From Flavobacteriaceae bacterium D16 (GTDB lineage Bacteria > Bacteroidota > Bacteroidia > Flavobacteriales > Flavobacteriaceae): DNA of 64,000 nt. The DNA is taken from NCBI GenBank assembly GCA_021295155.1, contig JAJTJC010000036.1, forward strand, positions 930,001 through 994,000, written 5' to 3'. The notes beneath the pieces are model-generated. The model did no database searches and had not been told where the DNA came from. It saw only the letters and a list, made by a program, of their open reading frames with translations. Below are positions 57,685 to 60,743 of the stretch, one piece after another; the stretch's first letter is position 1; every line of letters begins with the position of its first letter. Position numbers and translations under genes: made by a program.

Positions 57685-57855
57685 ATGAGAACAGTTTTAC
57701 TAATTAAGGAAATTTATAAAGAAGGATTCAGAAATTTAGGGCACTACCTGCTAAAACGCTATTTCAAGATTTTTGCCTGGTTTAGTTTTGTAATGTTTAC
57801 CATTGTGCTTTATGCATTTATATACCGGGTTGTAACCGGGTTCCCGTTTGATTAG
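57685..57855 (+). CDS. 56-residue membrane protein, DUF6747-like (copy 1)
   Basis: This short ORF starts MRTVLLIKEIYKEGFRNLGH. It has one transmembrane helix (FAWFSFVMFTIVLYAFIY) and ends TGFPFD. It shares about 35 of 56 residues with the ORF at 58186, including KEIY, E-x-FRNLG, FAWFSF and TGF-x-FD. The conservation of two copies argues that it is a real gene. It resembles small proteins I recall as DUF6747 of Flavobacteriaceae; the family name is a memory-based match. Function is unknown. Confidence 0.7.
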   Translation: MRTVLLIKEIYKEGFRNLGHYLLKRYFKIFAWFSFVMFTIVLYAFIYRVVTGFPFD

Positions 57856-58185: not shown

Positions 58186-58356
58186 ATGAAAACAGCAGTT
58201 ATAATTAAAGAGATTTACGCAGAGGCTTTCAGAAACCTTGGCAATTATATGGTGAAGCATACATTTAAAGTATTCGCCTGGTTTAGTTTTATCCTATTTT
58301 TCATTGGCTTGTATGCCTTGATTTTTAGAATGTCTACAGGCTTCGCTTTTGATTAA
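58186..58356 (+). CDS. 56-residue membrane protein, DUF6747-like (copy 2)
   Basis: This ORF starts MKTAVIIKEIYAEAFRNLGN, with a single helix (FAWFSFILFFIGLYALIF) and the end STGFAFD. It is the same length as the copy at 57685 and about 60% identical, most strongly in the charged N-terminus and the FAWFSF helix start. A Flavobacteria-wide small membrane protein is inferred. It is separated from copy 1 by the micro-ORF and a terminator, so each copy seems to have its own transcript. Confidence 0.7.
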   Translation: MKTAVIIKEIYAEAFRNLGNYMVKHTFKVFAWFSFILFFIGLYALIFRMSTGFAFD

Positions 58357-59048: not shown

Positions 59049-59125
59049 AACCGTGCTAAATACTACTTTTTATTGCCGGAGAATATCCTGCTATTCATCC
59101 TGATGGTATTTGTGGATATTTAAAT

Positions 59126-59160
59126 TAGGAAATAATCCATAAAATAGGATATATTCCATA
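59126..59160 (+). promoter_or_regulatory. tandem 16-bp operator-like repeats upstream of dinB
   Basis: TAGGAAATAATCCATA (59126-59141) and TAGGATATATTCCATA (59145-59160) match at 14 of 16 positions and start 19 bp apart. Each has a GGA-N5-TCC dyad. They lie 27-61 bp before dinB. The layout suggests a repressor-binding site, perhaps for a damage-response regulator. Confidence 0.55.
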
Positions 59161-59166
59161 TCTTAG

Positions 59167-59184
59167 CTATCCTTTTTTGGATAG
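59167..59184 (+). promoter_or_regulatory. inverted repeat CTATCC-N6-GGATAG just before dinB
   Basis: A perfect 6-bp dyad (59167-59172 and 59179-59184) with a TTTTTT spacer ends 2 nt before the dinB ATG. It could be an operator overlapping the start region or a leader hairpin. It shares the GGATA/TATCC core with the repeats at 59126-59160. Confidence 0.5.
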
Positions 59185-59186
59185 TA

Positions 59187-60401: not shown

Positions 60402-60743
60402 TTCTTCAGATGGCTTCCCTTTTCTTTGCCCGTCCAAAGAAAAGGGAGAAAAGAAAAGACGCCTTATCTGAGGAATTTTACCCGACAAGCGGGTAAACCG
60501 GTCTCGAAACTCCGCCATCCCGCCCTTAGCGGGACGAGTACCACCGGAGCTTTCTCGACCCTATTCTTAAGATAAGGTTCAGCTCTAATTTGAACCTTTA
60601 TCGTCAGCGAAGGAGTTAGCCTCCGTAAAAAATCGCTGAAGCCTTGGAAGCGATTTAGGGGTCTGGCTCCGGTTTTAATGCTTGCATTAAAATCGCCTAC
60701 GAAAAAGGAAGAACAAAAGAAATAAAGAGATAAATAAAAGAAC
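60402..60743. other. highly structured gene-free element between dinB and dnaE
   Basis: This 342-nt stretch is full of dyads. CCCTTTTCTTTG/CAAAGAAAAGGG (60417-60446) is a perfect 12-bp stem. CCTTATCT (60462-60469) and AGATAAGG (60570-60577) enclose TTTACCCG/CGGGTAAA (60477-60497) and a nested hairpin 60500-60560 (GGTC/GACC, GAAA/TTTC, CTCCG/CGGAG, TCCCGC/GCGGGA). AAGGTTCA/TGAACCTT (60574-60598) follows, and further on TTTTAATG/CATTAAAA. No convincing ORF is present; it looks like an inserted or repeated structured element. Confidence 0.75.

Follow-up and report, generated by a model that had tools for sequence, protein, structure and literature searches.

The tandem repeats in front of the dinB gene of Flavobacteriaceae bacterium D16 are, in all probability, the paired operator of a non-canonical, CI-like LexA (S24 family, GGA-N5-TCC), a reading that follows from sequence comparison. 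Between these boxes and the start codon, an inverted repeat is maintained among orthologues as a foldback, for which some selected base-pairing role is highly likely. Tentatively, we propose that dinB and the dnaE-type gene behind it may be under two independent locks, i.e., a LexA pair of fixed pitch in the style of CI and a foldback at the start site, such that only mRNA initiated by the SOS response would be translatable. The features concerned are located in Table 1, in coordinates of the window, i.e., the whole stretch of 64,000 nucleotides that was analysed.

Table 1. Features of the dinB promoter and of its surroundings (window coordinates).
Feature	Position	Strand	Basis or remark
Co-directional gene upstream of dinB, 170 aa	58536-59048	+	ORF list
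SOS box 1 (presumed operator), TAGGAAATAATCCATA	59126-59141	+	core GGA-N5-TCC at 59128-59138
SOS box 2 (presumed operator), TAGGATATATTCCATA	59145-59160	+	core GGA-N5-TCC at 59147-59157
Probable sigma-A -7 element, TATCTTAG	59159-59166	+	consensus TAnnTTTG
Foldback 5' arm, GCTATCC	59166-59172	+	covariation of arms
Predicted transcription start	59171	+	by analogy with F. psychrophilum, whose -7 element spans -12 to -5 (PMC9723704)
Foldback 3' arm, GGATAGT	59179-59185	+	ends 1 nt ahead of the dinB start codon
dinB, Y-family DNA polymerase IV, 404 aa	59187-60401	+	PF00817, PF11799
dnaE-type DNA polymerase III alpha subunit, 1014 aa	60744-63788	+	PF07733, PF17657, PF14579, PF02811

The two 16-mers are identical at 14 of 16 positions and start 19 bp apart, each with a GGA-N5-TCC dyad, which confirms the preliminary description, as does the second dyad that it had reported, CTATCC-TTTTTT-GGATAG (59167-59184), ending 2 nt before the ATG of dinB. 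A single nucleotide lies between the core of box 2 and the -7 element. Pairs of GGA-[AT]5-TCC cores at most 40 bp apart occur once in the window and in 0/300 dinucleotide shuffles, while pairs with any spacer are present in 45/200 shuffles, so that the AT-rich spacer matters for significance. A third GGA-N5-TCC core at 59078 was considered as a further dinB box and rejected as a chance occurrence, since it is missing in the nearest relative (L161). Neither a plasmid search with the dinB promoter nor an Rfam search at dinB (E ≤ 1) returned a match. As had been claimed, the LexA boxes of other phyla are not visible in the dinB promoter: it contains no CTGT-N8-ACAG, GAAC-N4-GTTC or GTTC-N7-GTTC, and the same holds for CTAA-N5-TTAG, so these canonical and non-canonical motifs were all discarded as the dinB operator.

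Of the non-canonical LexA proteins of Bacteroidetes, two types were published in 2021 (PMC8565304), and GGA-N5-TCC is the operator of one of them; the dominant target of this type is dinB, which frequently shares an operon with a Pol III alpha gene. For S. agarivorans, the same publication reports binding of LexA to GGA-N5-TCC by EMSA with dyad and spacer mutants, as well as mitomycin-C induction by RT-qPCR, and it argues for an origin of the non-canonical LexA from a phage repressor (PMC8565304). The preliminary description had proposed an operator of an uncharacterised SOS-type repressor in Flavobacteriaceae: the operator part is thus supported, both by this published LexA and by the co-occurrence described below, while “uncharacterised” has to be dropped, because the operator type is already known SOS biology and its repressor has been characterised. 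With the published regulon, the D16 locus shares the box, the main target, the repressor domains, the boxes at the repressor gene and the bacterial family; by contrast, the pitch of the boxes, their register with the -7 element, the leader foldback and the 85-aa gene discussed below were not found in the main text of PMC8565304. This main text mentions two or more sites in several promoters but contains no word beginning with “cooperativ” and nothing on the spacing between boxes. It was the only report on flavobacterial LexA operators that we found in the open-access literature, where we likewise found pitch, -7 register and foldback nowhere in print. The identity of the operator is directly usable for annotation.

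With PF00717 as the query, a single S24 gene is detected in the D16 genome. Its product (250 aa) matches HTH_3 (PF01381, 31.7 bits) and Peptidase_S24 (PF00717, 50.1 bits), both above cut-off, and shows no match to the LexA winged helix PF01726 at E ≤ 0.001. The D16 system has in common with the SOS system of the E. coli type an S24 repressor of the autocleavable type and a palindrome lying over the promoter, but differs from it by a CI-type HTH in place of the LexA winged helix. A103-G104, S142 and K181 are invariant in 18 aligned sequences including the D16 repressor, and their position in the S24 motif suggests that they correspond to the scissile Ala-Gly bond and to the Ser-Lys dyad, respectively. 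In the model of the L. aurantiacus protein, a predicted C-terminal helix (230-249) has a pLDDT of about 37-45 and the whole model only 56.5, and a PDB sequence search yielded weak matches to a chain named DBP48 and to the 434 repressor only. The repressor gene is divergent to a TIGR03915-like gene (104.7 bits, below the cut-off of 112.25; DUF4130 above cut-off), downstream of which lies a gene that reads as uvrA by a look at the sequence, and the shared promoter carries three GGA-N5-TCC boxes, 22 and 18 bp apart.

Elsewhere in the D16 genome, 19-bp pairs precede a PA0069-family radical-SAM gene (family score 466.8 bits, cut-off 360) and an orphan gene of 85 aa. A fourth match to the 19-bp pattern (C22:1046949) looks like chance, given that its second half is richer in G+C and that it lies inside an ORF. 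The preliminary description had suggested looking for its 16-mer ahead of recA, uvrA and other dinB genes, in this genome and in related ones, and this expectation was borne out in part: the box is present at other damage genes of D16 (in the promoter shared by the repressor gene and the TIGR03915-like gene, and at the radical-SAM gene) and at the dinB genes of relatives, but none was found upstream of recA (314 bp) or of the uvrA-like gene (195 bp examined). In S. agarivorans, recA is not induced (PMC8565304). As genome-wide motifs, neither TNGGA-N5-TCCATA (9 matches on both strands vs. 18 for the reversed control) nor the 16-mer with two mismatches (45 vs. 35 in the control) was clean enough to be retained. 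AT-rich boxes are more frequent than their control (50 vs. 23); 13 are intergenic according to a crude gene caller, including 9/13 in four clusters, and only multi-box clusters ahead of genes stand out in this genome. Single AT-rich boxes were also observed about 20 bp before two genes (at C11:1218822, L203, and C22:687833, L007), which look like a solute symporter and a large secreted protein, these names resting on a look at the sequence only.

Across 199 genomes of the family, the pattern GGA-N5-TCC-N8-GGA-N5-TCC is found at 132 sites in 69 genomes, while the reversed control is found at 18 sites in 16 genomes. Of the 72 genomes that encode a close homologue of LexA (E ≤ 1e-60; matches beyond this limit begin at about 6e-33), 64 have pairs at 19 bp, vs. 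5/127 genomes without one (Fisher p 9e-37, a guide only, the genomes being related). This association of box pairs with the GGA-type LexA also weighs against the idea that the tandem boxes are the sites of another regulator, such as a LexA paralogue of the CTAA-N5-TTAG type or an unknown repressor. Some Flavobacteriaceae possess both repressor types, GGA and CTAA-N5-TTAG (PMC8565304), and the protein query P0001 has a second match in the D16 genome, but the PF00717 search yields a single S24 gene there and the dinB promoter is devoid of CTAA-N5-TTAG, so that we regard such a regulator as very improbable and retain the GGA-type LexA.

The distance between the boxes is conserved at dinB. Among 68 dinB orthologues (70 loci minus L295 and L313, for which no start was found), the pitch is exactly 19 bp in 64, the exceptions being L170 and L184 (each with one box degenerate), L189 (22) and L281, while the 8-nt gap between the boxes shows 39 distinct sequences across these 64; as the orthologues are mutually related, such counts are not independent events. 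The same pitch is observed at splB-type, umuD, dnaE and 85-aa genes of relatives: when the protein starts of 30 tandem loci were read, 24 pairs faced dinB (4), splB-type (7), umuD (3), dnaE (4) or lexA/TIGR03915-type genes (6), the rest lying inside genes (4) or being other cases (2). In 75 forward pairs with AT spacers among the matches listed (pitches 11-41, i.e., gaps 0-30), 35 are at 19 bp and 69 at 18-23 bp (18 ×11, 22 ×8, 23 ×8, 21 ×5, 20 ×2), the remaining six being at 14 (×3), 27, 35 and 40 bp. Two sets were left aside, 18 more distant dinB upstream regions (L208-L225) and L050-L079. Yet 19 bp is not obligatory, since eight of the 72 genomes with a GGA-type LexA have no exact 19-bp pair and lexA itself uses other intervals: among named relatives (best 80 of 501, all fairly close), 80/80 lexA promoters have at least three cores, spaced by 18 then 22/23 bp in 79 and by 23 then 41 bp in one.

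The boxes also keep a register with the promoter. In F. psychrophilum, TAnnTTTG is located at -12 to -5 (PMC9723704). At dinB, TAnnTT(x)G follows a GGA-N5-TCC box by 0-1 nt in 64/68 orthologues. The element reads TAnnTT(A/T)G in 61 of these, and its commonest form is TAnnTTAG (50 loci). At dnaE (4/4) and splB-type genes (6/8), TAnnTTTG falls exactly between the boxes (TCC-A-TAnnTTT-GGA), and at umuD it follows the second box in 2/3 loci, the third being beyond the view of the script. At lexA-type loci, the register is found in at least one direction in 5/6 cases, with none at L042. Finally, TCC-(0/1)-TAnnTTTG precedes the 85-aa gene in 3/5 copies, while in D16 and a same-genus relative (G126), it is TAATTTTG that adjoins box 1 on its upstream side instead.

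Such a register raises the question of what fixes the pitch, because a -7 element inserted exactly between two boxes, as at dnaE and splB-type genes, would alone impose 19 bp. That the pitch stems from shared ancestry or from this placement, and not from repressor-repressor contact, nevertheless seems unlikely to us. At dinB, both boxes lie upstream of the -7 element and their gap varies widely in sequence, yet the pitch is kept in nearly all orthologues. Moreover, pairs of the sister motif CTAA-N5-TTAG are mostly 22-25 bp apart in families f3, f4, f8 and f9 (15/19, for a control of 4 there), even though these four were chosen after looking and all 296 genomes taken together show no excess (44 pairs vs. 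about 64 in the control).

In our interpretation, two adjacent LexA dimers, spaced by 19 bp and with one of them directly at the upstream edge of the -7 element, would hold dinB-dnaE silent until RecA stimulated the self-cleavage of the repressor; both the contact between neighbouring dimers and the self-cleavage are inferred for D16. The operators of lambda CI have a pitch of about 20-24 bp. With lambda OR/OL, the system described here has in common a repressor with a CI-type HTH, adjacent palindromes about two turns apart and arrays of three sites in the divergent promoter of the repressor gene itself, but its pitch is 18-23 bp with a mode at 19, and no Cro-like switch is known. A search of the open-access literature for cooperative, spaced SOS boxes found none. 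The kept pitch predicts cooperative, CI-like repression by a LexA for which a phage origin has been argued (PMC8565304).

As for the second dyad, its mere presence says little: perfect 6-bp stems with loops of 3-8 nt number 134 in the window vs. a mean of 121 in 10 shuffles, so that the dyad alone is not above chance, and the dinB leader alone folds with a z of about -2.5. Its support comes from conservation among orthologues, not from rarity in the window. Leader folding reaches p < 0.05 in 13/29 orthologues (30 minus L184, which has a 6-nt leader), and the arms covary (GCTATCC/GGATAGC, GCATACC/GGTATGC, GCTTAC/GTAAGC, GCATTG/CAATGC, GCTTC/GAAGC and others). That the dyad could be a further LexA operator was rejected, because in many other species the arms lack TCC/GGA and yet retain complementarity. 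When arms were swapped between leaders, pairing energies dropped from -5.74 to -3.28 kcal/mol (n = 29) and from -5.41 to -3.26 kcal/mol (n = 64, leaving out L165, L182 and L279, without a -7 match, and L184, with fewer than 15 nt), with 0/20,000 permutations as good as the own arms in either set. Among the 50 TTAG leaders, keeping one sequence per distinct 5' arm (21) still gave -5.12 vs. -2.94, and in each of 200 draws, none of the 500 permutations equalled the own arms. Strong own pairing (≤ -5) is seen in 35/64 leaders, and swaps between different arms reach this level in 22% of cases; by the same threshold, 35/60 dinB leaders pair vs. 18/119 control promoters. Start codons were assigned by rule, 8/68 being GTG or TTG.

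Of 11 leaders exceeding 30 nt, the longest having 171 nt, nine (all but L188 and L310) show pairing of ≤ -6.4 kcal/mol between the 5' arm and the 14 nt that precede the start codon. For 5/9 of these pairing leaders, no interior stretch does equally well, while in L171, L185, L280 and L281, 10-21% of the interior stretches do. By eye, the foldback appears multiplied in L280, which has four consecutive units, and in L177, which has two. Conversely, a strong foldback is missing in 16/50 TTAG leaders (five of which, L163, L178, L276, L301 and L303, fold to nothing), in 9/10 TTTG leaders and in 4/4 leaders with shorter elements; the association with the element (34/50 TTAG vs. 1/10 TTTG) has a p of 0.001 with no kinship correction. 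Instead of pairing as RNA, the dyad might act as DNA, through a cruciform or a single-strand hairpin in the open complex, or bind another dimeric regulator. Its overlap with the -7 element as well as with the predicted start would fit such roles, but the arms differ widely in sequence and the loops in length (leaders of 18-171 nt), which is unexpected for a dimer site or a cruciform and makes this interpretation improbable.

If the foldback acts in RNA, its position suggests a function. With the -7 element at -12 to -5 as in F. psychrophilum (PMC9723704), transcription of dinB would start near 59171, a position within the 5' arm; in most foldback leaders of the TTAG set, the first base of this arm is also the final one of the -7 element. 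An mRNA initiated under SOS conditions would then begin within the 5' arm, lack most of it and stay open. In contrast, read-through mRNA from the co-directional gene upstream, a possible source of such transcripts, would carry both arms, form a foldback that ends 1 nt short of the ATG and hide the start codon, thereby adding a translational lock to the transcriptional one. No terminator-like site was found on the + strand between that gene and dinB. The lock predicts co-directional upstream genes at foldback loci, for which only a trend is seen: among 43 loci having long flanks, 39 were counted, and such a gene is present at 16/23 with the foldback vs. 6/16 others (p = 0.059, with a crude gene caller). 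The host phylum does not rely on Shine-Dalgarno sequences (PMC9723704). We put forward such a lock against read-through mRNA as a tentative interpretation; weighing against it are a predicted start borrowed from another species, the leaders devoid of a strong foldback, the swapped arms that pair strongly and the interior stretches that do so in four long leaders.

The covariation of the arms would also fit a hairpin at work in the SOS mRNA itself, which would start no later than the G of the -7 element and whose foldback would throttle translation or protect the 5' end. TTAG elements go with the foldback and TTTG elements rarely do, which suggests that the promoter may be unusual. Nonetheless, with TAnnTTTG at -12 to -5 (PMC9723704), the transcript would contain no more than about 2 nt of the 5' arm, and an arm that shares its first base with the end of the -7 element, as in most foldback leaders, is better explained by a start inside the dyad, so we deem a hairpin in the SOS mRNA rather unlikely.

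For the lock against read-through, there are precedents: start-codon hairpins directed against read-through are known from the transposase mRNA of IS10 and the early transcripts of phage T4 lysozyme. The dinB foldback shares with them an inverted repeat over the start site (predicted here) and a 3' arm at or over the start region; in IS10 and T4, only transcripts initiated upstream fold, and the same is expected here. The difference is that the device would guard a chromosomal error-prone polymerase. Searching the open-access literature for read-through hairpins of transposase genes gave no relevant title among those listed. Should the foldback indeed lock translation, it would illustrate the lengths to which selection goes to silence a mutagenic polymerase and would extend a transposon and phage device to a chromosomal SOS gene; the reading with two locks, if true, would amount to start-site-gated control of translation for a chromosomal error-prone polymerase.

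Paired boxes further provide a low-noise signature for new SOS genes, as illustrated by the orphan 85-aa gene. In D16, it is located at C22:188086-188371 (L206, L256; relatives L257-L274), and this copy has no match in Pfam, NCBIfam or PHROGs. The family of small proteins (82-91 aa) comprises 19 copies in 15/199 genomes. All five copies in genomes with a GGA-type LexA have a box pair at most 40 bp from the ATG (pitch 19 ×4, 20 ×1), vs. none among the 14 copies of the 10 remaining genomes, where L270 has a single core at -132. In 12/14 of these pairless copies (L258-L274), CTACA-N7-GCAA precedes a TAnnTTTG element at a start-to-start distance of exactly 36 nt and might be a promoter element or an activator site.

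Concerning the flanks, the dnaE-type product scores above cut-off for TIGR00594 and below that of NF004225 (“error-prone DNA polymerase”). Being on the same strand with a gap of 342 bp, dinB and the dnaE-type gene possibly form one operon. Their gap (60402-60743, about 340 bp) has no + strand ORF of 60 aa and no repeat of at least 30 bp elsewhere in the window, but includes a short inverted repeat, CCCGC..GCGGG. Further upstream, 58011-58107 matches the Rfam rimP leader slightly below the gathering score (44.3 vs. 47 bits); no tRNA was found in this stretch, where a hairpin (CCCGC-GATTTT-GCGGG) with a T-rich tail resembles a terminator. On either side of it, two paralogous ORFs of 56 aa at 57685-57855 and 58186-58356 (MRTVLLIKEIYKEGFRNLG.. 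and MKTAVIIKEIYAEAFRNLG.., respectively) probably encode small membrane proteins.
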